A DNA stretch of 64,000 nt from Maylandia zebra (Eukaryota > Chordata > Actinopteri > Cichliformes > Cichlidae), in the NCBI RefSeq assembly GCF_041146795.1, contig NC_135168.1:14002131-14066130 (forward strand), in the 5' to 3' direction. A program made the translations under genes and the position numbers. Of this stretch, positions 21,901-61,100 are shown piece after piece (the stretch's first letter is position 1; each line of letters opens with the position of its first letter). Below the pieces are notes generated by a model. The model did no database searches and was not told the origin of the DNA. It was given only the letters and a program-made list of their open reading frames with translations.

Positions 21901-24900
21901 ATTATCTGACACCCAAAGTTTTAATTTGATGCAAAATAAATAGAAGTCCATTACTGTATATAGTAACTATTAAGTCTAATATATATACCCTAGTAAGCTA
22001 TAGTACTTTTTCCTTTGGGAAGGTACCATCTGTGCAGTCTGCAATTTTGTTGAAGAAAGATGTTGAATCTATTTAATATTTCTTGAAAAATAATTGATTT
22101 CTGTGCATTTTTTTTTCACACTGCATCAAATTAAGGTTGGTTACGTCGATTAAGCATCATGAGGTGGAGCGTGAGGGGTGGTTCCCTATTTTTTATTTAT
22201 TTATTTTTGTTGTTGCTGGGAGTTGGAACCCTATTAGTTAGGCTGCTTAATATTTATGCTAAGTACTCTTTAAAATACCAGAATAGGGAGGATGGTGTAG
22301 GTCTAAGTTTATTAGATTGATCAGTATTGCTGAACTATGAAATATTTTTTTTTGCATACAGGTATAACAGAATAGCTTTAGTGTAGTTGTTGTTTTAAAC
22401 TTGAGTATGAACTTATACAAAATGCAGCAAGATATTTAAAAAAACAGTTTTGTTGATTAAAAAACACTATATCGGATTCATATCGGTATCGGCAGATATC
22501 CAAATTTATGATATCGGTATCGGTATCGGACATAAAAAAGTGGTATCGTGCCATCTCTACTTGTGACACCAGTGTGTTCAGTCATTTCTCAGTGGGTCAG
22601 AAATTGTCATCAGCATTTTGTAAAATATGATTGTTAAAGTTGTATTTTTATTATTATTATTCAGAACTTCCAGCTGCTGTTTGTCATCGTAACCTTAAGT
22701 CTAAGCTGAAGAAGAAGTTCCAGTGTGTGTTTGAGGGCATCGCTAAAGCAGGAAACCCAACCCTCCTGAATCAGATCTACACAGAGCTCTACATCACAGA
22801 GGGAGGGACTGCAGAGGTCAATGATGAACATGAGGTCAGACAGATTGAAACAGCATCCAGGAAACCAGACAGACCAGAAACAACCATCAGACAAGAAGAC
22901 ATCTTTAAAGCCTCACCTGGAAGAGATGAACCAATCAGAACAGTGCTGACAAAGGGAGTGGCTGGCATTGGGAAAACAGTCTTAACACAGAAATACAGCC
23001 TGGACTGGGCTGAAGACAAAGCCAACCAGGACATCCAGTTCATATTTCCATTCACTTTCAGAGAGCTGAATGTGCTGAAAGAGGAAAAGTTCAGCTTGGT
23101 GGGACTTGTTCATCACTTCTTTACTGAAACCAAAGAAGCAGGAATCTGCAGCTTTGAAGACTTCCAGGTTGTGTTCATCTTTGATGGTCTGGATGAGTGT
23201 CGACTTCCTCTGGACTTCCACAAAACTACAATCCTAACTGACCCTAGAAAGTCCACCTCAGTGGATGTGCTGCTGATAAACCTCATCAGGGGGAAACTGC
23301 TTCCCTCTGCTCGCCTCTGGATAACCACACGACCTGCAGCAGCCAATCAGATCCCTCCTGACTGTGTTGGCATGGTGACAGAGGTCAGAGGGTTCACTGA
23401 CCCACAGAAGGAGGAGTACTTCAGGAAGAGATTCAGAGATGAGGAGCAGGCCAGCAGCATCATCTCCCACATCAAGACATCACGAAGCCTCCACATCATG
23501 TGTCACATCCCAGTCTTCTGCTGGATCACTGCTACAGTTCTGGAGGATGTGCTGGAAACCAGAGAGGGAGGACAGCTGCCCAAGACCCTGACTGAGATGT
23601 ACATCCACTTCCTGGTGGTTCAGGCCAAAGTGAAGAAGGTCAAGTATGATGGAGGAGCTGAGACAGATCCACACTGGAGTCCAGAGAGCAGGAAGATGAT
23701 GGAGTCTCTGGGAAAACTGGCTTTTGATCAGCTGCAGAAAGGAAACCTGATCTTCTATGAATCAGACCTGACAGAGTGTGGCATCGATATCAGAGCAGCC
23801 TCAGTGTACTCAGGAGTGTTCACACAGATCTTTAAAGAGGAGAGAGGACTGTACCAGGACAAGGTGTTCTGCTTCATCCATCTGAGTGTTCAGGAGTTTC
23901 TGGCTGCTCTTCATGTCCATCTGACCTTCATCAACTCTGGACTCAATCTGCTGGAACAACAACAAACAACCTCCAAGAAATCTAAATTATTTAACAAACC
24001 AAACCTACAATCTCTCCACCAGTGTGCTGTGAACAAGGCCTTGCAGAGTCCAAATGGACACCTGGACTTGTTCCTCCGCTTCCTCCTGGGTCTTTCACTG
24101 CAGACCAATCAGACTCTCCTACGAGGTCTGCTGACACAGACAGGAAGTAGCTCACAGACCAATAAGAAAACAGTCCAGTACATCAAGAAGAAGCTCAGTG
24201 AGAATCTGTCTGCAGAGAAAAGCATCAATCTGTTCCACTGTCTGAATGAACTGAATGATCGTTCTCTAGTGGAGGAGATCCAACAGTCCCTGAGATCAGG
24301 AAGTCTCTCCACAGATAAACTGTCTCCTGCTCAGTGGTCAGCTCTGGTCTTCATCTTACTGTCATCAGAAGAAGATCTGGATGTGCTTGACCTGAAGAAA
24401 TACTCTGCTTCAGAGGAGGCTCTTCTGAGGCTGCTGCCAGTGGTCAAAGCCTCCAACAAAGCTCTGTGAGTACATTTGTACTCATGTCTTTACTTTTAAC
24501 ATCCAACTGTGTCAGTAATTTATTTCACCAGGTTTTCTGTCTTTGTATGAATTTGTAAAGTTTTGGGATTTCTCCAATACAACTGTGACCTCTTTGATGC
24601 CTCCAGAACTCGAGACGCTGGATTCACCATAAACTCTGATCATCACTGCTGCTGTTATGTTATCAGTCTTTGTTTAAACACTTAGGCTGCATGTGCCTGA
24701 TGTTGTGATACTTTATATTCACATGCATGCTCCTAGATACATTTCTACTGCAGGTCTATTTTAGTCACAAATGTTGGTGAAACACTTGCTTTTACATGCA
24801 TGGTGGGTCCTGCATTAAAGAAAGCATTTGAATTACTCAGTGAATCCTGGCAGCCAGAGAAACATCCTTAGTTCCACTTTAAACTAAACTCTGCTTCGGT

Positions 24901-35841: not shown

Positions 35842-38800
35842 GGTACTCTTTGTGTATGTAGACGTTATATGTTAATGAACCTATGCATATTCATGTAACC
35901 TCAATAAAAGGACAGTGTATGGGAGGACGGACGAGAGCTACTGGGGTCAAGCGAAGGAACGGCGTTTGTCTGGTTCTCTCCCGTGCACGAGTACCATGAA
36001 GAAGTTTGCCTACTTGCGTCTTGCTTAGCAGTGTAATTATATTGTCTTAACGTTCCAGCGAATAGGTTTATGCTACAAACCTAACAGCAGACGTCTGGCA
36101 GCAGCATCATATTTGATGCACTATCTGTACTGAGTGTGCTGACTTTATTTCAAATGTCCCACTGCTGTGCAACATGAATCACATGTTCTGCACCTTTCTG
36201 TAACTCCCAGGTAACCATGGTTACACAGCTACAGTATATTCAGAGCCAGTGAGCACTTTCACAATAATCATGATTTTAAAAACTGTGATTAAAATAATTG
36301 CTGACGTTAATCAGTTAATGAGTTAACGAGATAATAACAGGTTAAGTTGCCCTAATAATTAGACTTTGGTGACAAACTGATGTGATCTCCATGTTTCCTT
36401 TGTTGGACTGTGGGCGAGTGTCAGAACTGAATGTACTGAGTAACATGTAGAGTTTAAACATGTGTCAGTTCCAGTTTTAGAGCTCTAAAGTGCAGCTATC
36501 ATGTTAGGAATATGTTAGGAATAGACAGGAACACTGAGCACACTGAGGTCAAATCTTTATTTTACCACTCGCTGCATTCTTGATGTTCATGAATTCAGCA
36601 GCTTCATGATTGTCTGCAGCATTAATCTCATATTTCCATTAAAAGTGTTGAATTTGACTGTTTGATGTTCTTTATGATCTCTGGCACCAGTTCATCTGTA
36701 GGCTGAGCTCAGTCCATCCAGTTAGTGAAATGATGTTTAAAGGTCTCCTTGTTCTGTGAGCGTGCACAGATCCTGAAGCAGAAAGCCTGGGTTACAGAGA
36801 AATGATCATCACTGTGATGATGCTCATCATCTCTGACTGGGATTTGAGGTTTTGTCAAAGCAGCAAAGAAAGCCTGGCTATGTTGGACTGGGTGTGGAAG
36901 CAGCTCCCAGTTTGAGTTCAGGAGACAGACACCCTCTCTACTTTGAAGATCAGCTTCAAACTTTCCTTTTTAATAAAGCTTATAGTTCGAGCTGGATCAG
37001 GTGACCCTGAACCATCCCTTAGTTATGCTGCTATAGGCTCAGGCTGTTGGTGGACTTCCCATGATGCTCTGCTTTCTTCTCCCCTCTTTTCACTCCTGAT
37101 GCTTTTATATGTCACTACTGCATGTCCTTAACTTTTGTCTCTCTGTTTAGTTCTTGTCTCTCTGAGCTCATCTCTTCTCTTTCCCCTCACCCTGCAACCA
37201 GTCATGGTAGATGCTCCTCCTGGAGCCTGTTTTCACTGGGAGGATCTTTGTGTCAAAGGGAGTTCTTCTTCCCACCATCACCAAGTGCTGCTCACAGTGG
37301 AGGCGGTTACCTTACACTGTTAAACAGCTTCAGATGACTGTTGTTGTCTGTTGGGTATTGTCACTTATAAATAAAGTTACAATGGATGGATAGATGTTAT
37401 TGTGACAAAGAGAAAACAACTGTTGTCAGATAGATTGTTGTTTTGTGTGTCTGCAGTCTGTCAGGCTGTCTGATCACAGAGGAAGGCTGTACTTCTCTGG
37501 CCTCAGCTCTGACCTCCAACCCCTCCCATCTGAGACAGCTGGACCTGAGCTACAATCATCCAGGTCCCTCAGGAATGAAGCTGCTGTCGGCTGGACTGAA
37601 GGATCCAGGCTGGAGACTGGACACTCTCAGGTATGGAGAGAAAATCTGATAGAGGAAGAGCTGGAAACATTTCCTGTGTCTTTCACTCACTTCCTGTTTG
37701 TTTCCTGCAGATGACACATGAACAATCACACATGCAGGAATATTTTCAGGGACAGACACACTAGTCTAGCTGGATAGTACATGGATATTTATGTAGGGGT
37801 CTCCAAGGAGTCTGGTTGCAGGAACATTAATGATAACTGATATGTTGAGAGTTTCATTAAAAGTAGACCTACAGTTAGGTCCGTAAATATTTGGACAGAG
37901 ACAACATTTTGTAACTTTAGATACACTTTATTAGGTCACAGGTGTACTATACCTGAGATAGTGGCCACTGTGTACTTAATAAGGTGTCAGCCATGTGTAT
38001 GTTTCCCATGCTGTATGTCCACAGTCACAGTGACAGTCAGTGACACTGACAGAAGGATGAAACAAGGCTGAATAGGCTGAACAGCTGAATTCACAATAAA
38101 TTTGTTCTCAAGTGGGTTAGGTGCACATTTTTCTGTTATTGTTCTCAAACAACAGAATGAGAATGAAATATTGATTCTAACAGGGCCCATAAAGGGCTTT
38201 TATTTTTTATTTTTTTTATTTTTAACATTAAATATGAAAAATAAATAAACAAATTAAGAATTAATAAGAAAATAAATCAATCTGTAATACATAAATAAAA
38301 TAATAATAAGATATTTTTAGTCAGTGAACTTGTGTGTATCTTTCAGTCTTCTATATCTGCTGTATTTAGATTGAAATGTCTGTATTAACAGTTCTATAAC
38401 CTTCTTCTGAACATGAATGGAACACTGTAGAAAATGAACTGTTCTTCTGAACATGGCTTCTCTTGCCTACTCCTTGCTGCTAGAGACCTGGCAGCGTTTC
38501 CTCTCGCATAGCCGAGCCAGATTTGGCCTGAGGGAGGAAGCAGTTGCGACCCTCAGTATGTCTTGAAGATGATCATCCGTAAGTCTGGACCTGTACTTGG
38601 ACTTATTGAAGGTCAAAGTGGAGAAGAGCTTTTGGCACAAGTATGTGCTACCAAAAAGGCACATGGTCCGCTTGAACATTCGGGAAAGCCGAGGGAAACT
38701 AGGGCTCAAGTCTCTCAAAAATTGTCCAAGCTTGTCTGCTTTTCCACTCACCTCCCTGAACTTTGCTTTGAGTTCAGAGTTGCACTGCAGCTCAATGAGC

Positions 38801-41488
38801 TCCATTTGAAGCACAGAAGGGGCATCTTGCACATCGAAGGAGAAGGGGTCCGCAAAAATGTGAAAGGTGGCTCTGTGTGTCTTGAAGTCAGCAAATCTGT
38901 GATCAAATTCCTCCTGTAGCCTCAAAATGACATCAACATACTCGTCAGCACTGAATGGTGTGCCTGCATCCACGAGTGCCTTGCATGCTGGGAAATGGCA
39001 AAGGTTTGTCTGAGAGAGCTGAGCTTTCCAGAGCGCCAGTTTTGTGGAGAATGCTCTCACGTTGTCATAGGCAGCACTGACAAGTTGCCCCTGGCCTTGT
39101 AACGTCTTGTTCAGTACATTAAGCTCATGTGTCATATCAACAAGAAAAGCTGAGTCCATGAGCCATTTGGGATCAGTTAGCACAGGAACACTAACTCCAT
39201 CCTTCTCCATGAAGGCTTCACTTCTGCTCTCAACTCAAAAAGTCTCTTTAATACATTTCCCCTGCTGAGCCAACGTACCTCAGTGAAGTCGAGCACATCC
39301 CCATATTCTGACTCCATTTCCTCTAAAAAAGCACAGAACCTTCGGTGCTTTAAGCCCCTGGATCTGATTTGGTTGATGCATTTCACAACAATAGACATCA
39401 CATTGTCAAACTTCAGGCATTTGCTGCAAAGGACCTGCTGATGGATGATGCAGTGCAGAGCAATGGCCTCCTCCACGCCTTCCTCTTCCAGTTTGTTTTG
39501 TGCCACCAGTCCATGTTTCCTCCCTGTCATTGATGGCGCTCCATCTGTTGTTATTCCAACAAACCTCTTCCATGGCAAACCAACATTCTCAATGGCATCA
39601 CACAGCTTGTAAATATCTGCTGAGCGGTGGTCTGGCCATGCATTGGAATTACTGTGAGCAGCTCCTCCATCACTTCAAAACTGTCATCAACACCACGGAC
39701 ATACATTGGGAGCTGGGCAGTGTCGGTGATGTCTGTGGTCTCATCAAGAGCGACTGAGTATACACTGAAACATTTGGCTTTCTCACACAGTTGGTCATAA
39801 ATGTCACTTGACAGGTCAGAAATGCGATCTGCTGCGGTGTTGGCAGAAAGGCTGATGTTGCTAAACTGACCTTTCTTTCCCGGACAGACTATATTTGCAG
39901 CCTGCAATATGCACTTTTAGACAAATGCACCTTCTGTGAATGGCTTCCCTGCTTTAGCAATCATCTCACTAACCACGTGGCTCCGACTGCTGCATTATTC
40001 TCTTTGGTTGCTTTCTTGGAGAAATCTTGCTGCCTCAGTAGATCTGTTTTAAGACTGGCAACCCGGTTCGCTCTCTCGTCTCCCTGGTATTTTGCATCCA
40101 GCTCAGCATGTCTAGTTGTGTAATGACGTTTCAAATTGTATTCCTTGTGCAGCGCAACTTTCTCTGTGCAAATAAGACAGGTCGGGGTGCCCCTGTGCTC
40201 AACAAAGAAATATTGCATTTCCCACTTTTCCTGAAATTGTCGGTGCTCATCACCAACCTTTCTCTTCACCGCAGGCTTTGAAAAAGACATGTTTGGGGCT
40301 ATGTGACATTTATAATTCTACTTGGTGTCACTGTCGCATTGAAGTTTCAATCAAGCGTTTAGCCGACGGACGGGGAACGTCTCAACGCGTAGAGAACGTC
40401 ATTTCTGCTTCTTTTTCTTGCAACCGTAGCACGGCGATCGGCAGATAAAAAGCCGGTAGCAGTCTCCTTTGTTTTTACGCTCGATGTTCATGTCTTTCAT
40501 GACGACACGAACACCGTGGCGTTTGCAGATGGTAGAAAGTGCAGGGATAGCGAGCGCAAAAAAGGCGACTGCTCACGGCGCCGGGCTGTTGTTACAGGAG
40601 AAAGAAGCGGAAATGACACCGTGACATATAACAAATAACATCAGCTGTTTCTGATGTTAGTTGTTTTGACTGCTTTTACATTATATTGAAATATATGTAA
40701 TGTTCATGTTTGCTGCAATGCAAACGCAGTGATGCAAATAAAAACATGGAGCCACAAATTACGGTGCGACCCTATAATTAGTCCGGGTTACCGGGGACTG
40801 TTGTTGCCGATGAACAGGTGTCGCTATGTGACTGCAGACTAAATTGGGCTGCATTGAGTTCATGACTTTTCTTTTATCCCGCCGCCTACGCATCACTGTG
40901 AGAGTTAATATGAGATCTCTCTCTGTGGAAAAATAACTTTAAATCCCACTGACGTGTGTATAAATCTATATACGTATAACGTCCCGCTGGGCAGCAACTT
41001 AAAAAACAACTTTTTTTGAAGTGTTGTGAACGCAGCGCGCTGGGGCGAATGTCGGCGTTTGCCCAATAGAAAGGAGGAAGCCAGACAGGCACAGGAAAGA
41101 AAGAAACACTCCAGGGCAACGCTGCTGGAACTTTGACTCATTGAGAAATGTTTCCCTGCTTGCATCAAGCCCGGCTGGTGTCCCATGAGATCCATATCCC
41201 ACCCTGATTGGTGGGTTAATTCAGCTCCGCCCACAACACTGTGAAGTGTCATACATTATCAAACTAACATTACATTTTCATATTAAGGTGGGGCCAAAAA
41301 CTATCGTCCTGCGGGCCGCAATTGGCCCGCGGGCTGCGAGTTTGAGACCCCTGGTGTAGGAGGACACCTACTCTGTGTCTGGTTAAGTATAAGAGCCCTT
41401 TGTTAGGGGGACCGCTGGACTCTTAGCACCAGCTTTGGGGTCACAGGGTCACATCTGGAACACACACACACACACAGACACAGACACA

Positions 41489-41533
<45 letters not shown>

Positions 41534-44500
41534 ACACACACACAGACACACACACACACGCGCACACAGACACACACACAGACACACACAGACACAGACA
41601 CACACACAGACACACACAGACACAGACACACACAGACACACACACACACAGACACACACACACACAGACACACACACACGCGCACACAGACACACACACA
41701 CGCACACACAGACGCACACATACACACACACACATACACACACACACGCACACACACAGACACACACACACACACACACATACGGGTCTATGTGGTATGG
41801 CGGGACTATACTACGTCAATCCGCCCGGTGGTGGTTTAAGTGGACTACCCTTTTGAAAGGACTTAGAGCCAAGGGAGCGAGGTTAAAGTGTTCGAAAAAA
41901 TCTGAAAAAAATTTGGGTCACTTCAGACCTCATACACTCCCTATAGAAGTCTAGATACACTGATACACACCAACCAGACTCTATTGTGTTTTCTGGAGAC
42001 ATTGTCCACTTGACAATAATGTGTTTTATGAGGTCCAAAAAAAGCAATATTGGGTCTTTAAAGGGACAATGATGTAATATTTAAATAGCTCATCATTACC
42101 ATGAATACACATCTGACAGGACACAGGATTACTGGAACATCATTTTATTAGTGTTCTTGGATCTGAACATTAATTTTAACCATAAATAAAAAAAGAAATC
42201 TATGGACAAAAATGCCCACGCTTCCCACAGAAATATAAAAATATAGAAAACAGAAAAATTAAAAACATTTAAAATGAATTTTAATAGTTTAAAGGTAAAT
42301 ATTAAGGGGAGAAAATATGCATTTATAATTTTTTATTTTAAATATAACCCGTCAAAAAAACCCCTAAATAAATTAAATGTAAAAATTATGAAATACAAAC
42401 TACTTCTGTATTTAACAAGAACTTTTTTTTCTTTAAACAGAACATCAGTGTTAACAACAATTGGCAATCTGACCAAGATGTAAAACCACAGCTCTCTAAA
42501 CAGTTATTTTAGTTCATTTTTTTCTGCCTTTTTGCAGTTAATCCTCTGTTTCTTACAAAATCTCGTATGTTTTGAACTGTTCTTCCTGCCAACACCGGAT
42601 CTTCTACCAATTTGCAATGACTGCATTCATTTTTGGTGGCTAGTTTCCCTTCGTTTATGTGGTCTTTAAAATGCCTCATCACTGCAGCAACCTCAGCCTT
42701 GGACCACATGTGTTTGGGAGCTCTTCGGGAATTGTGGGATTGAGCAGCATTTTTCTCTGGAAGATATATAAAGTAGTAGTAGTTAAAACAAACAAAAAAC
42801 CAAACAAAAAAAACAAAAAACATTTGGTGGTTAAAAGAATGGATGCTACCCTGTACTAACTTCTGAAATGTGTTGCTACCATCAATATCAAAACGAGCTA
42901 AAATTCTCTTTGAAAATTTATCAAATTTCTAAAATGAGACATTTAGTGTTCCGCTGTGAATAAAAGACTGAATAAAAAGTTGAATAAAAGTCTCTTGATG
43001 CATGCTCAATCATCCAGGTAAGTAAATCCCAAAACGTTGATTCTGTTAATCTGGACGTAGCGTTTTCAGTGGGAGAAACATTTTGTCACTCATCCAAGTG
43101 ACTTTTTGCCACCACTCTGCAGTTTGCCATATGTTGCAAAGTGATGAAACAATAATAAGCTTCGAGAACCAACTGCACCCCTTACCTTCAGAGGGAGCAG
43201 CAGTCTCACTTGCTGCAGGCATTGTGAGTGGTCCTTCATCTGCTGATTACACAATTTGATTAAGTTTTAATATTTGTAACAAACATTTTATCCACAGAAA
43301 CCAAGCTAGTGGTAACTTACCACAATCTACAGTGTCTTGGAGCTGCGCTGTGTTTGTGGAATCAGCTACTGCATGTACAGGCTCACTGGTGCCACACGCC
43401 AACATTGTGAGTGCTGTGTCATCATCATCTGATTCACTCTCACTGTCCTTTGTTTCAGCATCACTTAATGCAATTTCATCTGAGAAATTGTGGGAAAACC
43501 CCCCCAAAAAACCAAACACAAACCCCCCAAAAACCTCACATTAACAACGAGATATGACAAAATACAGAACAAATACTGGAAATTATAGTACATAGTTTTA
43601 CTATTTAAGGCCACCACTCTGCAGTTTGCCAAATGTTGCAAAGTGATGAAACAATAGACTTCAAGAACCTTAAATCATGGACATTTAACAGAATGGTCTG
43701 TGCTTTTAGGTTTTAATTCTGTTGATAAAGCATAATATTCAACTACTGCCCTAATATTTGCTCCTTTCAATACAAACCTATTTTGATCTCATCCAGTGAT
43801 TTCCCCTGGATCTGGGAAAGTTGTCCTTTTTCCAGTGTTAAAAGCAGTTTGGAAATCTTGGCCAGCTGTGTTGTGGGAACTGGTAATCTGTAGAATTCGC
43901 GGTGAACGCGGATATCATGACCCAGGAAATCTGCAACCTGATCAAGTTCGTTGTTTTTCAAATTAAGGACTTGTGAGAGTGTGGCAACATGTTTTCTGAG
44001 CTGTGTCGATCTTAGATACTCAGGCTGCTTTGCTCCACACTGGTGTGCATGAACACGCAAGGAGTCCATTCCTCTGTAATGACTCATTGATCGGGGTCTT
44101 GCAAAGAGGTAGATATTAGTGGCACAAATACCACAGTCAGGCCTCCTACTAACCAGTAGTGACAGAGCATCCAGCATGCTTGGTGTTAGCAGAACTGGAA
44201 CATTTCTGTCCCTTTTTCCCATTATTTCTATTCTACAGAAATAGTTACAGAGTCTCTGTTCCATTTCTGAGAGCCCCATGGCAACATCTGTGTGGAGTGC
44301 TGTTTTGTCTCTTTCAAGAAAACTTTTGAGGCGCATCTTTGAAACCTCTCCAGAACGTCTTCGGTTGAACACAATGATTTGTGAGAGTGTAACTTGTGCA
44401 AGTTGGGCATAATTCTGAGCTGTGGCTTCGTTCTCCAAGCTGCAAAAGGCACTTTCTGCAGATTTTTGAAGGTAGTGATGGAGAATCCGAACATCTTCTG

Positions 44501-47500
44501 TAAAGGGCAATGTTGATGGCTTGTTAAACTTTGCCTCACTCAATGTGTTCAAGGCACGGTGAGACACCATCTCAGACCATTTGGAGACATACAACTTCTT
44601 GAACGCATCAGTGGACTTGATTAGGGCTTCATCCTCTGTCATGAGGGCACGACAATGGATAATGTCAGACATTTTATGCAGTGTATGTCCCAGTTTCAGC
44701 GCAAGGCTTGGAGTTTTGTATGACAGTGTCTCTTCATCAAAACCTGAAACTTTCTTTACTGCTTGCACAACTCTCTGGAAATTAGCAGGCTTAATAGCTT
44801 CTTCCATGTTATGCACTGAGAATTCTGTGCGCAGACACAACAACAAACGTCCCGCTTCACGAAGCTTCTGTCGTATATAATCATACTTTGTAGGGTCTTG
44901 TCCATGTTTATTGTAGAGGGACTGGGCAAACTGAATAACAGTAAAGTCATTTCGCACAGCTGAGGCAATCTCATCTTGTTTCATAACAGCAAGAACCTTC
45001 CAGACTCCACTTGACACCTGCGGATAACACTGAGACTCCAGAGTTAAAGCCAGGCCGAGTACTTTGGTTCTTCCAGGTTCTTTATCCGTGTCATCTTTTG
45101 GTTTGTTAGGACATCTGCGGACATGTCTCCAAAGATCCTTGCGAACATACATCCCTTGACAATAAAAGCAATGAGCAAACTTTCCCTCTACTGCTTTAAT
45201 CTTGGGTCTTCTCTTCACTTTCAGTGGTCCCACTCCACCATGCAAAACTGCAGCATTATGCTTAAAATTTCCCTTATTTCTCAATTTCTCTAACAGACTT
45301 TTACGCTCGTTTGAGTCTCTAGGCAGGGAAAATGCATGCACAACATCAGGAGCCGTTTTGTGCGTTTTCAGGTGGCGGGAAATTTTAGCTTGTGGTTTGC
45401 CACAAAAATAGCAGTAATTTCTTTTACTTAAAGTCATTTTTTCTGATTCAGTTTCGCAAAGCTCACTTTTATCTTGTGGCTTGTCCTTTGTCAAGTTGTG
45501 GATTAAATTCATTGAATCTGATTGTTCATGCGCTTTGGAGATGTCATCTTGGCATAGCAGACCTTTTGATGTGCTTGGCAATAATGAGATGTCTTCATCT
45601 GAATCTTCATCATATGACTCTGAATCTGGCACATATTCTTCTTCTGATATGCTGTGGTTGCCATCATCATCGCTTGATATTTGATCCAGAACTGAATGTG
45701 GCAATCCATCCTCCCCTGAATATTCAGAAATTTCTTCTTTCTGGAATGTAAGAACAAAAGTTTTTTTAATTGATCAATACTTTAGACAGGTAAAAAATAA
45801 ACTGAAAAAAAGTCAAGCCAAATATGAATGGGATACACACCTGTGTTGACTGGTGGCAATTCTGATTTGCCAATTTTGCAAGGCAAGATTTGTGCCAGAC
45901 CCCTAAACAAACTGAAACACATTTTGATAGACTTAATTTAGCTTTGCAGTTCTATTTAAGTGAAGTAGTTTTTTGTCAAAGCATTGCAGTAATGTCAAAT
46001 GCTGAAAAAAAAAAAAAAAAAAAAAAAAAAAACTGTTCACATTAAGGATATTTTAATGACTACACATACACTGCTAATCCCCCTCCCCCCCCCCCAAAAA
46101 AAAGGACATCCCAGATGTGAATGAAGGAATTATTCTTATTAAATACTTTGTTCTTTAGGTAGTTGAGTGGCATGAAAGTGTGTAGTTGAATGTGTGTGGC
46201 CTCCAGATGCCTGTACGACTTCCCTACAATGCCTGGGCATGCTCGGGATGAGGTGGCGGATGGTCTCCTGAAGGATCTCCTCCAAGACCTGGACTAAAGC
46301 ATCTGCCAACCCCTGGACAGTTTGTGGTGGATGGAGTGAGACATGATGTCCCAGATGTGCTCAATTGGATTCAGGTCTGGGGAACAGGCGGGCCAGTCCA
46401 TAGCATCAATGCCTTTGTCATGGAGGAACTGCTGACATACTCCAGCCACATGAGGCCCAGTGTCGTCTCGCATTAGGTGGACCCCAGGGCCAAATGCACC
46501 AGCATGTGGTCTCACAAAGGGTCCGAGGACCTCATCTTGTTACCCAATGACAGTCAGGCTCTCTGGCAGGCACAGAAATGCCACCCCTCACCATTACTGA
46601 CCCACTGCCAATATGATCATGCTGGAGGATGTTGCAGGCAGCAGAACATTCCCCACGGCATCTCCAGACTGTCACGTGCTCAGTTTGAACCTCCTTTCAG
46701 CTGTGAGGAGCATAGGGTGCCCGTGCTGAAGTTGCCAAACTTTGTGTTTTCTGGCAAATGCCAAACATCCTGCATGGTGTTGGACTGCAAGCTCAATCCC
46801 CACCTGTGGATGCTGGACCCTCAAGCCACCCTCATGAAGTCAGTTTCTGACCATTTGAGCAGACAGATGCACATTTGTGGCCTGTTTGAGGTCATTTTGC
46901 AGGGCTCCTCTTGTTCCTCCTTGCACAAAGGTGGAGGTAGCGGTCCTGCTGCTGGGTTGTTGCCCTCCTATGGCCTACTCCACATCCAGGTAGCACCTCC
47001 ATGCTCTGGACACTACACTAACAGACACAGCAAACCTTCTTGCCACAGCTCACATTGATGTGCTACGCTAGATGAGCTGCACTACCTGAGCCCCTTGTGT
47101 GGGTTGTAGACTGTCTCATGCTACCACTAAAATGAAATCACCGCCAGCATTCAAAAGTGACCATAACATCAGCCAGAAAGCATAGGTGCTGAGAAGTGGT
47201 CTGTGGTCACCACCTGCAGAACCAGTCCTTTATTATGGTGAATTGACTATAATTTCCACTTGTTGTCTACTCTATTTGCAAAACAGCATGTGAAACTGGT
47301 TGTCAGTGTTACTTCCTAAGTGAACAGTTTGATTTCACAGAAGTGTGACTGACTTGGAGTAACATCGCATTGTTTAAGTGTTCCCTTTATTATTTTGAGC
47401 AGTTTATGTTATGGAATGGGGAATTGAGGACAATCCCAAGTATACCATTTTTACAAGGTCCTGCACCAATGAGGTAATACTGCATTTCTTTAATTAGACG

Positions 47501-50500
47501 TGACCACCCATTAATTAAAAAGGGAGCAGTGTTCATTTCAGCACGTCTTAACTTGTTGAACTCTATTAATGCTTTTTACTATACACTGTACCTATTCACT
47601 AAATGTCTCACCTTTGCACTTAAAGCCAAGCCACTTGAGGGAGGAAACCGGTCCCACACACTGAATGCACTTGTCCAAAGATGATATTGTTGTGCACACC
47701 AGACGATGATTGTGACACTGTTAGCAAAATATTGCAACATTTATTTGTTTTAGACAGTTGGAAAGGTGTGTTTTCAATTCAGTTGCAGATATCAACTAAT
47801 AAACTTCGTCCATGTAAATCACATCACACCCAGGTGACTGCCAAACACACACACACACACAGCATCCATAAAGAATGATGATAGATTAAATTATTAGTTC
47901 ATTAAGTGGTACACTGGATTATATTTACCCTTTCAGGCTCTGGATGTTTCAGGTCCAGATCATTGTTTGGAAAGCTGTTTGGTTGCGGCTTTAGGCAGCT
48001 CACAGTCTTCTGAATCTGGCTGGTCTCAGTCTTCGTGTGTAACAGATAGAGAATGAAGACAAAAGAACAGTAATCTGACAGTTACTAAAAATGCATCACT
48101 CAAGAGGATGAATAGACCATTTCACTATCGGCAAATAGCGTAAGGTACACATCGTGCATGAGAAACATTCATTAAAATCTGTCCTAGGTCAATGTTACCT
48201 CTTCAAAATCTTGCACTGAAGAAGAATGCATGGCTTCTGAGCCTTGCTGAGGCATTTCTTCATCAAGATCCTGCAACAAAGAAAAGATGGCACAAAGATT
48301 AGACCAAGTGCTCTTCTTGCAACTGTACTGGGCAGGCCTGTGCTTCTGTTTTTAATTTGCATGTGTGTGTGTGTGGGGGGGGGCTTTCCACTCAAGAAAT
48401 GTTTTCTTCTGAAAAAAATACTGGCTACAATAATTAACAACTGATTCCTTTGCAATCATCCATCCTCTTCCACTTATCCTTATCAGGATTGTGGGGTAGC
48501 AGTTTTGGGGCCTATACCAGCTACCATAGGGCAGTACAACCTGGACAGATCACCAGTCTAACATGGAAGGACAAGCATTTGCATTCACACCAAAGGGCAG
48601 TTTTGAATCACCAGTTAACCTAACCCCATAAGCTACATCTTTGGACTGTGGGAAGAAGCCAGAGTACACAGCCAGAGAGAGCCCATGCACTAAAGCAGTA
48701 AAAAGTGCCTAAAAGAAGTTAAGAAGTTGTATAGTACTATCTATCTTAATGTTCAAGCCTGAGTTTCAAAAAATTTCAACATAGAAACAAAGCACATGCA
48801 GTCAGTTCTGCATGCTGTAGGTCAAACTGTCAAGACATACGAGAAGACCCCTCCTAAAACCAGAGTGATGTCACCATGAAGCAAACTTTGACGGAGTCCC
48901 CCAATAACAGTGTGGTCCTCCTAAGTCACATTTGGGTGGTTAACACACACACACACTCAGATGTTATCCAGACTTGCACTTTGAAACAATGAAAAGGACC
49001 TACAAGCCACGGTCCATGTAAATCACATCACACCCAGGTGACAGCCAAACACACACACACACAGCATCCATAAAGAATGATGATAGATTAAATTATTAGT
49101 TCATTAAGTGGTACACTGGATTATATTTACCCTTTCAGGCTCTGGATGTTTCAGGTCCAGATCATTGTTTGGAAAGCTGTTTGGTTGCGGCTTTAGGCAG
49201 CTCACAGTCTTCTGAATCTGGCTGGTCTCAGTCTTCGTGTGTAACAGATAGAGAATGAAGACAAAAGAACAGTAATCTGACAGTTACTAAAAATGCATCA
49301 CTCAAGAGGATGAATAGACCATTTCACTATCGGCAAATAGCGTAAGGTACACATCGTGCATGAGAAACATTCATTAAAATCTGTCCTAGGTCAATGTTAC
49401 CTCTTCAAAATCTTGCACTGAAGAAGAATGCATGGCTTCTGAGCCTTGCTGAGGCATTTCTTCATCAAGATCCTGCAACAAAGAAAAGATGGCACAAAGA
49501 TTAGACCAAGTGCTCTTCTTGCAACTGTACTGGGCAGGCCTGTGCTTCTGTTTTTAATTTGCATGTGTGTGTGTGTGGGGGGGGGGCTTTCCACTCAAGA
49601 AATGTTTTCTTCTGAAAAAAATACTGGCTACAATAGTTAACAACTGATTCCTTTGCAATCATCCATCCTCTTCCACTTATCCTTATCAGGATTGTGGGGT
49701 AGCAGTTTTGGGGCCTATACCAGCTACCATAGGGCAGTACAACCTGGACAGATCACCAGTCTAACATGGAAGGACAAGCATTTGCATTCACACCAAAGGG
49801 CAGTTTTGAATCACCAGTTAACCTAACCCCATAAGCTACATCTTTGGACTGTGGGAAGAAGCCAGAGTACACAGCCAGAGAGAGCCCATGCACTAAAGCA
49901 GTAAAAAGTGCCTAAAACAAGTTAAGAAGTTGTATAGTACTATCCATCTTAATGTTCAAGCCTGAGTTTCAAAAAATTTCAACATAGAAACAAAGCACAT
50001 GCAGTCAGTTCTGCATGCTGTAGGTCAAACTGTCAAGACATACGAGAAGACCCCTCCTAAAACCAGAGTGATGTCACCATGAAGCAAACTTTGACGGAGT
50101 CCCCCAATAACAGTGTGGTCCTCCTAAGTCACATTTGGGTGGTTAACACACACACACACACACTCAGATGTTATCCAGACTTGCACTTTGAAACAATGAA
50201 AAGGACCTACAAGCCACGGTCCATGTAAATCACATCACACCCAGGTGACAGCCAAACACACACACACACAGCATCCATAAAGAATGATGATAGATTAAAT
50301 TATTAGTTCATTAAGTGGTACACTGGATTATATTTACCCTTTCAGGCTCTGGATGTTTCAGGTCCAGATCATTGTTTGGAAAGCTGTTTGGTTGCGGCTT
50401 TAGGCAGCTCACAGTCTTCTGAATCTGGCTGGTCTCAGTCTTCGTGTGTAACAGATAGAGAATGAAGACAAAAGAACAGTAATCTGACAGTTACTAAAAA

Positions 50501-53500
50501 TGCATCACTCAAGAGGATGAATAAACCATTTCACTATCGGCAAATAGCGTAAGGTACACATCGTGCATGAGAAACATTCATTAAAATCTGTCCTAGGTCA
50601 ATGTTACCTCTTCAAAATCTTGCACTGAAGAAGAATGCATGGCTTCTGAGCCTTGCTGAGGCATTTCTTCATCAAGATCCTGCAACAAAGAAAAGATGGC
50701 ACAAAGATTAGACCAAGTGCTCTTCTTGCAACTGTACTGGGCAGGCCTGTGCTTCTGTTTTTAATTTGCATGTGTGTGTGTGTGTGTGTGTGTGTGGGGG
50801 GGGGCTTTCCACTCAAGAAATGTTTTCTTCTGAAAAAAATACTGGCTACAATAATTAACAACTGATTCCTTTGCAATCATCCATCCTCTTCCACTTATCC
50901 TTATCAGGATTGTGGGGTAGCAGTTTTGGGGCCTATACCAGCTACCATAGGGCAGTACAACCTGGACAGATCACCAGTCTAACATGGAAGGACAAGCATT
51001 TGCATTCACACCAAAGGGCAGTTTTGAATCACCAGTTAACCTAACCCCATAAGCTACATCTTTGGACTGTGGGAAGAAGCCAGAGTACACAGCCAGAGAG
51101 AGCCCATGCACTAAAGCAGTATATAGTGCCTAAAACAAGTTAAGAAGTTGTATAGTACTATCTATCTTAATGTTCAAGCCTGAGTTTCAAACCACATAGA
51201 AACAAAGCACATGCAGTCAGTTCTGCATGCTGTAGGTCAAACTGTCAAGACATACGAGAAGACCCCTCCTAAAACCAGAGTGATGTCACCATGAAGCAAA
51301 CTTTGACGGAGTCCCCCAATAACAGTGTGGTCCTCCTAAGTCACATTTGGGTGGTTAACACACACACACACACACACACTCAGATGTTATCCAGACTTGC
51401 ACTTTGAAACAATGAAAAGGACCTACAAGCCACGGTCCATGTAAATCACATCACACCCAGGTGACTGCCAAACACACACACACACAGCATCCATAAAGAA
51501 TGATGATAGATTAAATTATTAGTTCATTAAGTGGTACACTGGATTATATTTACCCTTTCAGGCTCTGGATGTTTCAGGTCCAGATCATTGTTTGGAAAGC
51601 TGTTTGGTTGTGGCTTTAGGCAGCTCACAGTCTTCTGAATCTGGCTGGTCTCAGTCTTCGTGTGTAACAGATAGAGAATGAAGACAAAAGAACAGTAATC
51701 TGACAGTTACTAAAAATGCATCACTCAAGAGGATGAATAGACCATTTCACTATCGGCAAATAGCGTAAGGTACACATCGTGCATGAGAAACATTCATTAA
51801 AATCTGTCCTAGGTCAATGTTACCTCTTCAAAATCTTGCACTGAAGAAGAATGCATGGCTTCTGAGCCTTGCTGAGGCATTTCTTCATCAAGATCCTGCA
51901 ACAAAGAAAAGATGGCACAAAGATTAGACCAAGTGCTCTTCTTGCAACTGTACTGGGCAGGCCTGTGCTTCTGTTTTTAATTTGCATGTGTGTGTGTGTG
52001 TGTGTGTGGGGGGGGGGCTTTCCACTCAAGAAATGTTTTCTTCTGAAAAAAATACTGGCTACAATAATTAACAACTGATTCCTTTGCAATCATCCATCCT
52101 CTTCCACTTATCCTTATCAGGATTGTGGGGTAGCAGTTTTGGGGCCTATACCAGCTACCATAGGGCAGTACAACCTGGACAGATCACCAGTCTAACATGG
52201 AAGGACAAGCATTTGCATTCACACCAAAGGGCAGTTTTGAATCACCAGTTAACCTAACCCCATAAGCTACATCTTTGGACTGTGGGAAGAAGCCAGAGTA
52301 CACAGCCAGAGAGAGCCCATGCACTAAAGCAGTATATAGTGCCTAAAACAAGTTAAGAAGTTGTATAGTACTATCTATCTTAATGTTCAAGCCTGAGTTT
52401 CAAAAAATTTCCACATAGAAACAAAGCACATGCAGTCAGTTCTGCATGCTGTAGGTCAAACTGTCAAGACATACGAGAAGACCCCTCCTAAAACCAGAGT
52501 GATGTCACCATGAAGCAAACTTTGACGGAGTCCCCCAATAACAGTGTGGTCCTCCTAAGTCACATTTGGGTGGTTAACACACACACACACACACACACAC
52601 TCAGATGTTATCCAGACTTGCACTTTGAAACAATGAAAAGGACCTACAAGCCACGGTCCATGTAAATCACATCACACCCAGGTGACTGCCAAACACACAC
52701 ACACACACAGCATCCATAAAGAATGATGATAGATTAAATTATTAGTTCATTAAGTGGTACACTGGATTATATTTACCCTTTCAGGCTCTGGATGTTTCAG
52801 GTCCAGATCATTGTTTGGAAAGCTGTTTGGTTGCGGCTTTAGGCAGCTCACAGTCTTCTGAATCTGGCTGGTCTCCGTCTTCGTGTGTAACAGATAGAAA
52901 ATGAATATACAGTGCATTTTTGAAGAGGATTTTGAAACATTAAATAAACTGTATGAGAAAGATAAGTTTCAAGCTATTGTCTTTACAATATTCACTGTCA
53001 TGTATAGAGAATTTAAGGCCCTATGATTAAGAGACAAATAGTCAGTGTGATTTCTTTATTTTTTAAGCCATTGCTAAAGGAGTAAAACAATCACCTGTAG
53101 CAGCAACGAACTGTCACTAGGGCCCATTTATCTTCGAGGGACAAAATTTAAAATGAATCTAACTAAAGAGGCTACACAGCAAAATCTCCAGTGTTAAATT
53201 AACACTAGAGAGTGTCTATATGGGTCCACACAACACTGTTGAGTGTTGAATTAACACTTTTGACAGTGTTATATGTTTAAAAGTAACCTAGTCAGTTTTG
53301 AAGATTAACAAAGACTAACACTGAGCAGTGCTGATTTTCTAACACTGGAATATTTCTAACATTTTGAGTTATTTTCCAGTGTTAGAAAATCAGCACTGCT
53401 CAGTGTTAGCCATTGTTAATCTTCAAAACTGACTAGGTTACTTTTAAACATATAACACTGTCAAAAGTGTTAATTTAACACTCAACAGTGTTGTATTTAA

Positions 53501-56132
53501 CACTCAGAGGTGTGGACCCTTATAGACACTCTCCAGTGTTAATTTAACACTGGAGATTTTGCTGTGTAGAATCACATTAAACATCAATCACTGTTAAAAT
53601 TTAGAAACCGAAAGCCATTTTTTATTTCTGCATACCTGCTGATATTTTTTTAGTGCTTTTAGAGGGCTTTGATGTGGCAGCCATCACAATTGCCTGTTTT
53701 CCATTAGTACCTACCCCTGTTTTTCCAGTAGGTTATAGTACCATGTAGTTTTTCAGTAACTACTGCACCAAGGTTCCAAGTGATCCAAAGTGATCAGAAA
53801 ATTTGACATAGACTGAATGCCACCAGGTGGCTGGTCAATGGTGTCACTCGATAAGTTATGAGTGCGCCTCCTTCGTGAAAATCCAAGCCATCATTTTTGA
53901 AACTCTGAAATGTTTGAAATAGCGACCAAAATTAACAGCGTGATCCCTGAATTGAACACTAAAGTATAGACTGAGCAGCAGGCATTTTGTCACCTTGACG
54001 TCCATGCTTGCTGTGGCATTTATATCACTGGATGCTCGGCTGCATTGCTATAGTTACCCCAGGCACAGTAGGTGATACTCAATTTCAGTGAAAAACTAGA
54101 TGCCGTAAGTCACGTTAAGCCAATTTGAGTAGGTACAAATGTAAAAATGGCTTAGGGTATGCAATTTATCAGTTCCAAAAAGTACAATTGTAGAAATACC
54201 TTGCATCTCCAGAGCCAATCCGAGTCACCATAATTATAGTCTATTTCTTCACCTGGACTTATGTCTCTGCTTGCAAATAAGCATAGATGGGGCTTTCCAT
54301 TGATATTTAATATTTTCATCTTAGCACTTGGACTGATGTGGTTGTCGTTGACAAGTCTGCCTAATGACCCATCTTCTTGAGATGCATCCACACTGTGGGG
54401 TTAGGCAAAAAAGTATTAGCTTAACTAGTTAGGAAGCTTTTTTTTCATAAATCAAAAGCAATGTGTAATTTAATCTTAATCAAACTACACTGATATAATA
54501 CGCACCACCAGAGTTTTCCATCAAACTTGAATTCAAACATGAACACCTTCAGGCTGTCATGATAAACTCTGTGTCTCCGCTCACATTCTTCTTTTGTTAT
54601 GAGTTTACCTCTGTATTCCAAAAGAAAGTCTCCTTTTTGGAATGGAACAGTCGTGAAAATGCCCCGACCTGAATTGCAGAGGCATACCAAGTGAGTGACA
54701 AAAGACAAAGTGACAAACTCCAAATCTAATCCAAACTAAAGACCAACTTACCTTTGAAGGCATTTATGTAGTGGATATCAAGTCCCAGTTTGTCCCTTCC
54801 AGCAGAAACATGACAGACTGCATCCTCCCGTGGAGGAATGCGTCTCCTTCGCATGTTCTCCTGTACGTTTTGATTGGCTGTATTACCAAAGCATATAAAG
54901 TATTACGATTATCGTCATCATTGTCATCATCATCAGTAGTAGCAGAACTAGCAGTAGTGTAGTTTACAGCATAAACACAGCTGACTTATTCATAGTGCTA
55001 ATTTATGCCTTCTTTTAAAATGTTAAAGGCCTAGTACTCAAAATGGCGACATGTGACATTTCTGTAATGGCGACTGCAGAGAGTGATACAAGTACTGAGA
55101 AAGCTTAGGCATCAAAACTGTAAGAAGTTTTTTCTTCAGGCATATAAATAAATACACGACTAAATACACTTATACCCTTGCTTTTATTTTAGGGCTGTCA
55201 GCAGAATGGACAGACATTGGACAAACTGCCCGAAATTAGCTAACAGCGACATCAGGGATTTTGACTCAGACTGCGCTGGTTTAATTGTTAATCGCGTTAG
55301 TCGCGATGTCGGCATTAACACGTTTAAGCCACAATAATGCTTTAACACCGAGTAAATCCTAACACGGGTTAGCCCGCTTTATCGCGTTGACGCGGTTAGT
55401 CGTCAGCCCTATTTTATTTACTCAATGACAAACGCTGGGGCCGTTTTACTTCTTCAAAGACTCACTAACAGTCCATAAAGCATAAATTAAACCAGTTTAA
55501 TATAGGCCTGTGCACCTATAATTTCATATAGTATTAAAGTCATGGTGCATTTTACATTAAAAAAGGCTTACCTTTGTGTTTTTAATCCGTCTTCGTATTG
55601 CCGTCGACATACACTTGTTAAAGGGCACGCGCGCGAAAGTTGTGGCGCCGTTTCCTGTAGGTACCGCCTATATATATAGCCTACCAATCACAATGACTTC
55701 CGGCCGTGTGTATTGAAAATGTGTATTAAATTGCAGTACCTACACACATCCACTCTAACTCGAAACGTCGCTGTGCAATACACTGGAATACACAAAAATC
55801 AGGTGAGGGGTATAGGTGGACTTTTAAGAAAATCAGAAAATCTTTTAATTATAGTTTAATAAATGAATTTACACTACAGTTTAAGCAAATACAGGTCAAA
55901 AGATAAATAATGACCTCATAAGAAGTAGAAAAAATTATTATTTAGACACTTAAAAATGCATTTACAAGTCATGTTTTAGGGGGACACATGAATACACAGC
56001 AAAAAGTCGAAATGTCCCCGGAGCCCAGGTACAGCGCAGGTCAAATGTCAATCCATACCACATAGATGCACTCACACACACAGACACACACACAGACACA
56101 CACACACACACACACACACAGACACACACACA

Positions 56133-56181
<49 letters not shown>

Positions 56182-57636: not shown

Positions 57637-57915
57637 GTGGAGTGTAAAGAGTGTCTTCTGTTACAGAAACACTCTGACTGTTGAACAGATAGTTCAGTCT
57701 GTACATGTCTGTCTCTTTCACTCACAAACACGTTTTCAGATTCATGGATTCAATCAGTTGATGTTTGAAACTCTTCTAAATGATTCCTTGTAAACTTCTT
57801 CCTCTTCAGTCACAAACAAACAGGAAGTGATGTCACATGTGTTCCTGTCCACACAGCAGAATGAGTCTATTGCTGACAGTGATGTACAAACAGAGTGAGC
57901 ATTTCTGAGGCCCAA

Positions 57916-57921
57916 AATAAA
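57916..57921 (+). promoter_or_regulatory. Candidate NLR polyadenylation signal
   Basis: AATAAA about 280 nt after the NLR stop codon. Confidence 0.5.
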
Positions 57922-58062
57922 CTGAGTAGTTCACTGAATGAACAATGGACTGTGAGCTCAGTTCCTTCATCATTAGTATGGATTATATATGTATATGTAT
58001 TATATTAGTATCATATATATCAGGTGCTGCTGCTTTCAGTCATTGTGCAAATGTGCTGTTTG

Positions 58063-58172
58063 TAAGCTTGTAAAGCTGCAGTCAGCTGAGACTGAAGAAG
58101 TCACCTGATCAGTGAGCAAACGTTTCTGAAAACGTCCAGATGAACAGAATCAACCTTTTGGGATCAGCCAGC
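58063..58172 (+). mobile_element. Penelope-like terminal repeat relic (duplicate of 281-390)
   Basis: Identical in sequence to the left-copy relic; carried by the segmental duplication. Confidence 0.55.
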
Positions 58173-61100
58173 AATGCAGCATCATTGTTGTTCAGCTTCA
58201 GAGGTTTGCAGGAATGAACTGATGACCAGAAACAGCTGCAAAGTCCAAGAAAATACCAGCTGGAGTTCAGCTGCATTTGAAGAAGTCAAAGAAAAGTAAG
58301 GATGGCAAAGGGCGACGTTTTCTTCCAAAGAGCTGCAAACATGGTCGACGCCTCATTAGAAGAATCATCTGGACATTTGTGAGGAACTCTAACCAAGAAA
58401 GCAACGTCACACAGATCCAACAGACAGTTTCCATGACTGCAAGTGTTGAGTGGAAAAATGCTACATTGCATTATTGCATCCTCTCACCACAGGAGGCGCT
58501 GTTGGCACCACTGATTGCTGATCAGCTGTTCTCTGATGATCTGATTGATACTGTGAATAACGGGACTCACTGAACTCTGTGACACAGTGAAGATTACAGA
58601 GTTTAACTTCACCCTTTAAGACTGACCACAGAACCAAGTCCGCCAGAGCTTTTGTTATATTTTTACATGCTGTGGAGCCATTTGTGGGAGCATTTCAAGT
58701 TGCTATACATCAATACAACTGTTATAGCCCTAATTTTAATAATATGTATGCATTAAGTCCATAGTAACTACATAAACTGCAAAAAAAACCTCTGCTCATC
58801 CATCTCTGTGTGTATCAGGATACATTTGGTTCATAATACACAGAAAAATCAGAGTTATTACCTGTAATAAATGTGAAAGATTCCTGCAGTGATAACCAGG
58901 CAGGACTGAAACACATCCAAGCTGTCACCACGGTAACAGCACCGCCCATCCACAGGTGAGGGGAGGAGCAAAAAGAGGGACTTTGACCATTTTATACTAA
59001 AAACACTCAACTAATGTTTCTAATATGAAACAAATAGGCCCACATTAATGTGAGCGTTTATTAAATAATAATAATGATGATTTCCTCCTGATCTCATTTC
59101 CACAGCAGAGAAAACTGTGGTGTATATTGAGGTGGAGGGTGTGGTCTGTGGCTCAGGTGTAGAGTGAGGGTGGGGTGCACCACAGCAGCATGCTGGGACT
59201 GCTGAGGGTGGAGGAGGGAGTGATGATGACATCAGAGCTGCAGCACAGAGACCAGTGAACACACAGTCTGTTCATCTTTGCATAGATACAATATACAGCA
59301 CAATATTGAATGACAGACACGCTGTGGGAGCTTCCACAGATACACTGACGTCAGCATCCAGAGTCCTCCTGCTGCTCCCCCCTCAGAGCCCCGTGATCAG
59401 CACCAACACATTCAGTTAGATGACAGAGTCCAGCTGCAGCTAGAATCAGCTCCCCTCTGTGAACAACAGCACAGCGTCAGTGTTTCACACTCAGTGAAAG
59501 GAGGAAACAGCAGAAGAACACCATGTGTGCTACGTTTCCCAGGACACACTACAAACTGCACAAATACAGAGCAGCACGTGGAAGGACCTGGAGCTGCATT
59601 TACAGAGCTGCAGACAGCGTGATGTCCTGTATGGACAGGTGGAAGGAACCAAGTCCTCAGCTGGAACACTCGTGTTTGTCCACAGACAGGAAACACAGCA
59701 GGAAACTTCCTCACAGAAGTGCAGCTCATGGATAACACACTTCCTGTCAGTCAGAATGAGGCTGCAGCCAAACACAGAAAGGTGTTTTTGTCCAGATGAG
59801 CCCAGAGAAGAAACACGAGTGTTCACAGACATCAGAAGCTCAGAGAGGTGAAACATGAGGTTGGAGTCCTCGTCAGCATCCAGAAGAGCTGCTGTGAAAC
59901 CCTGAGTACTCATGACAGACTCTGATGGCACAAACACATCATGATTCAAACAGAAAGACAAACATGGAGCTCCTGATCCTCCTGCATGAGAACAAGCTGA
60001 CATGAGCGCTGTGTCTGAGAGTGTCTCCCTGTCACAGTGACAATAACACAGCTGCTGCTCACAGTCATTAAACTGACCTGAGGTCAGCTGTGCTCCTTAC
60101 ATATGAACCATGTGACCTCACATCAGTGCTGTGGATGACTGTAGTCATAGAAGAGTAGAGCTGTAGCAGGTGGTGTGAGGAGGAGGTGGTGTATTCTAGT
60201 TAACGCAGTACTGAAACACTCCAGCAGAGGGCGCTGTTAAGTCCTTATTGTAACACAGTTACTGTGTGCAGTTAGACTTCATACATAATCTGCACTTATT
60301 TCCATCAGACATGCTGTCAGTAAATGATTGGTTTCTATTGATTCTACTTCCTGTTGACTCGTTTGATGACAGTGAAACAATCACAGCTGATTGTGTGATG
60401 ATGTAAACTGTCACTGTTACATTCAGTGTGTGTGACATAATGTTAGTGCAGGCTGATAACAGCCTGGTTCTGTTAGAAACACATGAACGTGTCCATAGAT
60501 CAGTGTGTGTTTAACATGAGAGCTTCAGCCCTGCTGATGTGTTAAATAAAGACATGCAGGAAAACTGATGAGACTCTGAAATAACTCTTTATATTTATAA
60601 TGTAACTCTGCATCAAAAGAACAACAAAGGATCCCAGACAGGTTTCTGTGAACAAAGACCATTCTGATGTTTCTGTGTTTCTAACACTTTGACATTATTA
60701 GTAAACAGACTGCAGTGAGCAGCATTTATAAAGAGCTTCTATATAAAGATATGACAGCTGTTTGACAAGTTTATCACTCTGTGTTTGGACCTGATCAGTC
60801 CAGCTGTTTACTTGAAACATGTTCATTTACCTGTTCTGTTATATTCATGTTCTTGTCTCTGTTGAAAACACATTTTAATGTCCCTCAGATTTTTCTCCCA
60901 GATGAATAAATATAAAAATGACACAAACTGACTGCAGCTACTTTTTGTCCTTTCTGTCAAAAACCTTCATGTGACTCATGAGAGACACGTTTCAGCTGTT
61001 TGTGACAGATCAGAGGCCAACAAGTCATTTATAACACTTTCCATCATTGTTTAAAGTTCTCAGTGTTTCTGTGTTGCTGCGTATAGGATCTCCCAGCATC

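Follow-up and report, generated by a model that had tools for sequence, protein, structure and literature searches.

A SET-tyrosine recombinase gene in the cichlid Maylandia zebra and the probable Crypton-like transposon that carries it into (TG)n microsatellites

A stretch of 64,000 nucleotides from the cichlid Maylandia zebra (contig NC_135168.1, positions 14,002,131 to 14,066,130; hereafter the window) carries on its minus strand exons for a SET domain and for a tyrosine recombinase (YR). The locus raises the question of whether these exons form one gene, whether such a gene serves the host or moves on its own account and, if it moves, what it targets and what use it has for a SET domain. 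Splicing signals, a gene model with SET and YR in one protein, its domains, terminal arms, insertion into TG repeats, copy number and derivatives together indicate that the gene very probably belongs to an autonomous, Crypton-like tyrosine-recombinase DNA transposon, recently active, that inserts into (TG)n/(CA)n. All coordinates below are those of the window.

The gene has 11 exons with GT-AG boundaries on the minus strand, which join in phase throughout from an ATG at 55610 to a TAA at 42509 and give 1069 codons plus the stop without an internal stop. The fusion on one strand and the intact frame claimed in a preliminary description of the window are therefore real. The 1283 codons counted there could not be reproduced as an exact figure but fall within the range of 1069-1301 set by optional exon pairs: 1.2 kb tandem repeats (48.2-51.9 kb) hold four such pairs, each adding 58 codons in phase 0, and inclusion of all four gives 1301. 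The exons are as follows.

55572..55610, minus strand: exon 1, ATG start; its first 13 residues are identical in the listed protein P0002.
54752..54860, minus strand: exon 2, basic N-terminus, then the first part of the SET module.
54506..54668, minus strand: exon 3, SET (Pfam and KMT5A structure matches).
54200..54392, minus strand: exon 4, SET (Pfam and KMT5A structure matches).
52777..52878, minus strand: exon 5, linker (TETSQ exon).
47929..51895, minus strand: four exon pairs carried by the 1.2 kb tandem repeats; repeated exons are used in the listed protein P0001.
About 51895-51824, 50679-50608, 49472-49401 and 48270-48199, minus strand: DLDEEM exons of the tandem pairs.
About 51655-51554, 50439-50338, 49232-49131 and 48030-47929, minus strand: TETSQ exons of the tandem pairs.
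47612..47717, minus strand: exon 6, first half of a C1/PHD-like finger (C1 profile PF00130).
45841..45911, minus strand: exon 7, second half of the C1/PHD-like finger.
43778..45740, minus strand: exon 8, acidic stretch, two CxxC..H(x)nH/C motifs and the tyrosine recombinase.
43321..43479, minus strand: exon 9, acidic linker.
43186..43242, minus strand: exon 10.
42509..42756, minus strand: exon 11, C-terminal domain (also present in homologues) and stop TAA.

The protein thus runs from a basic N-terminus through the SET domain (Pfam PF00856, E 6.6e-18), a variable linker, the C1/PHD-like finger, an acidic stretch, two zinc-finger-like motifs (ZF), the YR and an acidic linker to a C-terminal domain (CT) with a CxxC. 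Profile PF00130 matches 14 of 26 alignment members (E up to 0.1), and the exon at 45911-45841 supplies the rest of the CxxC..CxxC..HxxC finger. No reverse transcriptase or DDE domain was found in the gene by the Pfam search. The best of the listed protein matches, predicted and 99% identical, are those of Simochromis (LOC120720108) and Astatotilapia (LOC113026373), and their exon joins are almost those of the window gene; in the Astatotilapia protein four extra residues follow exon 1 and one is missing close to exon 10. Predicted proteins differ in the number of exon pairs that they use from the tandem repeats, which lie at 48.2-52.9 kb of the window.

Might SET and YR nevertheless be separate genes that travel in one element and yield little fusion transcript? 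The homologues bear on this. They were taken as the best 120 of 356 matches in a first search and the best 120 of 339 in a search from an eel member, 235 when pooled, and are predicted proteins, many of them isoforms of one gene. SET and YR stand in one chain in 210 of the 235, SET first in 209, and the order SET-C1-ZF-YR-CT is found in 67 of the 120 listed from the first search. Together with the in-phase joins, this argues against two genes. The opposite view can point to 25 models without SET among those 120, of which 24 have the YR, and to the fact that the fusion is known here from DNA: our gene model rests on DNA sequence, and the Simochromis and Astatotilapia matches are themselves predictions. 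We consider separate genes improbable. The homologues listed come from ray-finned fishes (cichlids, other percomorphs, carps and relatives, catfishes, elephantfishes, shad and eel) and from one frog, Ranitomeya; the fusion is old and common.

The same association is seen in the genome. Of at least 84 matches to the zinc-finger-YR protein, we compared the first 44 by score and the full-length match C16:6039763 (45 in all; the 39 lower matches, mostly fragments, were excluded) with the SET matches around them. In 35 of the 45 a SET match on the same strand lies no more than 25 kb upstream, where about 0.001 per match would be expected; three have SET downstream and none has it on the opposite strand alone. 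A chance neighbourhood of SET and YR is ruled out by this linkage, and the prospect, raised in the preliminary description as a way to overturn the fusion, that the two parts would prove unrelated neighbours elsewhere was not borne out.

Among the homologues three are unusual. The frog protein (P0124, Ranitomeya variabilis LOC143784261) has the order SET-ZF-YR-CT with the YR motifs and is 59% identical to the eel member over 69% of it, which suggests horizontal transfer or an unexpectedly wide spread. P0025 and P0026, from Vanacampus and Parambassis, are named as NCK2a and PAK1 isoforms, yet match the element protein and carry its SET, which suggests exonised copies or gene models in which the element is merged with host genes. 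No relative of the SET-YR protein turned up when viral contigs were scanned.

If the gene is part of a mobile element, the element should have ends. Sequence homology between copies stops at the same two points, and 13-bp arms, CTATGTGGTATGG, form inverted repeats there. The unit so defined is wider than the 42509..55695 first proposed.

41781..56072, minus strand: the whole element, 14,292 bp from spacer to spacer; these ends are common to the copies read and agree with empty paralogues of its own site.
41788..41800, plus strand: 3' terminal arm CTATGTGGTATGG, with a 7-bp spacer TACGGGT at 41781-41787.
56053..56065, minus strand: 5' terminal arm CTATGTGGTATGG, with a 7-bp spacer AGTGCAT at 56066-56072.
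41460..41780, unstranded: interrupted (CA)n tract 3' of the element, one half of the split target microsatellite, which is a single continuous CA tract in the empty paralogues L068-L074.
56073..56180, unstranded: interrupted (CA)n tract 5' of the element, the other half of the split target.

The search for further copies with shared ends, advised in the preliminary description, was successful. All 18 of the 5' junctions read lie at (TG)n, followed by a 7-base spacer and then by the arm; the spacer is AGTGCGT in 16, AGTGCAT in the window and TGTGCGT in L017, and in L024 two other bases stand between the tract and the spacer. With up to two mismatches allowed, the genome has 28 places that match the 3' arm plus ten inner bases, against none for a reversed control. 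The 24 of these places that were read all have CCATACCACATAG, then ACCCGT[A/G] (A in 20, G in 4), then (TG)n of at least seven units. In L014 two copies stand head to tail, with an uninterrupted (TG)n between the 3' end of the first and the 5' end of the second. Outside the element, 49 kb of the window hold one perfect (TG)/(CA) tract of seven or more units (0.1% of bases), and a rarity of this order rejects chance as an explanation of the junctions.

TG on both sides at every junction read, with a nearly fixed 7-bp spacer between arm and tract, could also mean that the element brings its own (TG)n and integrates at random. The sites themselves decide this point. Several copies are inserted at an identical position in repeats of the same kinds. 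For one target repeat, a search with joined flanks (55 rows; 40 of 1176 candidates scored) gave at least 33 places at which the flanks lie close together, 17 as single alignments and 16 as pairs 41-385 bases apart, and also found two filled places. All eight of the 33 empty paralogues that were read have a TG tract at the insertion point, mixed with other bases in L060 and L063; the filled sites of this repeat are L017/L034, L024/L050 and L027/L043. Dozens of paralogues of the flanks at the window's own site lie elsewhere on its chromosome (66 rows, with 40 of 1236 candidates scored). Of 38 matches to the right flank, 26 have the left flank at a distance of 65-389 bp, two of them with the left flank matched in part; the remaining 12, the window's own included, have no close left-flank match among the matches listed. 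The seven empty paralogues read are all of the form GTCACATCTGGAA-(CA)n-CTATGCACAGACTGG, interrupted in some, and the window element sits inside the (CA)n tract with no flank base lost. The (CA)n in the empty versions of its own site shows that the element entered a tract already present. With a TG/CA tract, interrupted in some, at the insertion point of all 15 empty paralogues read from two target families, and with an interrupted tract in the window that resembles the empty tracts of L070 and L071, a carried (TG)n is refuted for these two families and very improbable in general. The insertion sites are partly non-independent, as L013 and L031 have near-identical flanks, and so do L017 and L024. 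The preliminary description had recognised the recombinase gene of this element; its ends, microsatellite target and empty sites had escaped it.

The number and likeness of the copies bear on whether the element still moves. The genome searches scored part of the candidates, and copy counts are thus lower bounds. A search with the SET family gave at least 83 matches in the 962 Mb genome, many of equal score, with about 20 in the subfamily of the window element; 14 matches to the zinc-finger-YR protein cover the full query at 99-100% amino acid identity, 13 of them without a stop. Other subfamilies, at 60% (six copies), 55% (three), 48% (four) and 47% (three and two), also have copies of equal or near-equal score with open frames. 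A comparison of exons 1-4 with the window, blind to insertions relative to it, found the SET frame free of stops in all 19 further copies; exon 1 is absent from L028, and L022 shows a gap of 12 bases. L022, L026 and L027 show no substitution over about 1.49 kb, gaps aside, and likeness of this degree between distant places implies that the copies spread recently. The YR exon is deleted with identical breakpoints (43612 and 46945 of the window) from L025, from L029 and from the upstream one of the two copies in L014, as expected for non-autonomous derivatives moved in trans. From its sequence, the element appears to have been recently active in the Maylandia zebra genome.

These data also bear on the suggestion, made in the preliminary description, that the gene might be a domesticated host regulator that resembles a transposon gene. 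An intact reading frame and a SET domain under purifying selection (see below) would suit such a role, and PMC3212892 describes other host genes derived from a YR. About 20 dispersed, near-identical copies, some of them far apart yet without a substitution over about 1.5 kb, with common ends in (TG)n and empty paralogous sites, refute domestication for the window copy and make it highly improbable as a general account. Most catalytic residues are lost in DUF3504, the domesticated Crypton YR of KCTD1, ZMYM and QRICH1, and most are kept in the element; no such family appears among the Pfam matches of eight YR segments with E up to 10, a search in which HMMER filters drop most matches above 0.1.

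As a mobile element it would depend on the YR, which was assigned by motif. Pfam support comes from relatives' segments: PF00589 (Phage_integrase) matches four of eight with E up to 10, the best at 5.4e-4, and the window's own segment has no PF00589 match within the same limit. The residues expected of a Crypton-like recombinase, as which the preliminary description had rightly identified it, are kept almost throughout the 118 segments aligned: R67 in 118, K116 in 117, R189 in 117, H215 in 116 and Y224 in 115. They fit an active YR with one changed residue, activity being a prediction. As in Cryptons, the YR is the sole recombination enzyme; the R-H-R-Y tetrad is incomplete, with T for the first H and the other residues present, and we have therefore filed the element as Crypton-like and not as a Crypton.

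Several observations weigh against an active, TG-targeted transposon or narrow its scope. The first H of HxxR is replaced by T (STxLRK) in 108 of 120 listed homologues, and with this residue changed full YR activity is uncertain as judged from sequence. A YR profile run against solved structures gave three matches that we take as chance, the best of them a histidine kinase at E 0.0037, and did not recover known recombinases; this is a result against an easy assignment. For ten of the 45 large YR matches, the 25 kb upstream contain no SET match. The 5' end of L028 is missing, and L029/L033 has flanks from two different sequences, which is unexplained. The evidence for (TG)n targeting covers a single subfamily: no 5' end could be found in the 60% subfamily, where seven copies are alike over the full 1.25 kb upstream query and the four read for 1 kb beyond it are still alike. 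Lastly, neither transcripts nor excision nor circles were seen in this sequence-only analysis.

Some of these copies deserve a closer description. The open YR copies at C2:3064087, C6:44415195, C10:34493162, C18:36544939 and C21:521001 belong to the two 47% subfamilies and have no SET match within 25 kb upstream, which suggests that SET was lost or that its exons are split. The 60% subfamily (loci L003, L064-L067) has seven copies that agree at 96-100% over the upstream query of 1.25 kb. The sequence shared by four of them for 1 kb further upstream includes a GC-rich stretch; the element of this subfamily may be much larger than that of the window.

The best PDB matches of the SET domain are KMT5A/SETD8 entries (1.4e-26), the closest solved structures. 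The domain keeps YNYG, and Y[ND]YG is found in 185 of the 235 listed homologues. It differs from KMT5A in one aromatic residue (Y to F) and in the NHS motif, which reads ND[DEN]H in 79 of 120 listed homologues; this counts against a conventional enzyme, as with the NHS change methylation may be lost or altered. The host enzyme KMT5A is not known to carry a YR. Between the window and the 60% subfamily the SET exons have a non-synonymous rate (dN) of 0.24 and a synonymous rate (dS) of 1.95 (117 codons), and dS is saturated against the 48% subfamily. The low dN relative to dS indicates that the SET sequence was held by purifying selection while the lineages of the element spread. On balance we favour a methyltransferase role of some kind. 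A SET domain that is a passenger, or a protein-binding module without methyltransferase activity, is a serious possibility in view of the changed NHS motif and aromatic residue; the strong selection and the retained Y[ND]YG argue against it, the former with the reservation that a binding role could also be selected.

A route for the element can be proposed from its parts. The YR would bind both arms and bring the ends together, so that the arms face each other across a (TG)n core, a junction of the kind that the head-to-tail copies of L014 show. An arm-(TG)n-arm circle would then be cut out or copied, and strand exchange would take place inside the TG repeats. Any (TG)n would offer a matching core in any register, which would permit integration without a longer specific sequence and leave TG on both sides. 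Near the bound ends, the KMT5A-like SET might methylate a lysine on a histone or another protein, and so open or mark the target chromatin or protect the element. In its widest form, this would describe a vertebrate-wide class of mobile DNA in which an active histone methyltransferase, fused to the element's own recombinase, prepares or protects microsatellite chromatin at each jump while the dinucleotide repeat serves as a register-free crossover core; we put this forward tentatively, as an idea that may well fail.

Among known systems the closest in description is CryptonV, some families of which insert specifically into microsatellites (Kojima, 2022, PMC8869645, citing Kapitonov and Jurka, 2012). 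These are likewise YR-encoding DNA transposons, and empty and filled sites establish a microsatellite target for the cichlid element as well; Kapitonov and Jurka, by their title, report on cnidarians. The element is most likely CryptonV-like, likened by description and not by protein sequence, so that membership is unproven. Animal Cryptons are described by Kojima and Jurka (2011, PMC3212892) as having no C-terminal domain and no terminal repeats that could be found. CryptonA of medaka and other animals, in the same paper, is a YR DNA transposon of fish with non-autonomous derivatives, to which the cichlid element adds SET, a finger, a C-terminal domain and 13-bp inverted arms; the word 'methyltransferase' is absent from that text. 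Endogenous nimaviruses, according to PMC10871703, have telomere-repeat-specific YRs and share with the element a YR with a C2H2 motif and a simple-repeat target, but they are large viral genomes of crustaceans with the target (TAACC)n. SETMAR/Metnase also joins SET to a transposase-type enzyme; it is domesticated, of the mariner type and restricted to anthropoid primates, whereas the cichlid fusion is itself mobile and multi-copy. No SET-bearing Crypton or YR element appeared among the papers listed from the literature searched, of which Repbase and most subscription journals were no part.

Should this account be right, the element would be a natural mobile counterpart of SETMAR, with a chromatin-modifying type of enzyme and a recombinase in one chain, kept by selection and recently spread, and it would allow a test of whether transposons can write chromatin at a donor or target site. 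A simple form of safe-site targeting, with a TG-repeat core flanked by two arms, is suggested by the ends, spacers and empty sites and is relevant to site-specific integration. Annotation is also affected: fish catalogues enter many proteins of the family as uncharacterised and give a few of them the names of host genes.

The surroundings of the element agree with the NLR intron in which the preliminary description had placed it. The gene is antisense to its neighbours, a FISNA-NACHT exon (22631-24469, plus strand) on one side and a PRY-SPRY exon (57055-57636, plus strand) on the other, a position as expected for such an intron. The sequences at 1-718 and 57777-58500 repeat each other at 99%, and the element's flank has about 40 paralogous copies along one chromosome (C2, about 5.1-14.2 Mb); with the flanking exons, this suggests a very large, young NLR array. 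A remnant of a hAT transposase (PF05699) lies at 38467-39234. Within an intron of the element, at 53172-53569, there is a long palindrome of about 400 bp, matched in all 21 loci compared (19 distinct places) that include that part, which is probably a nested miniature inverted-repeat transposable element.

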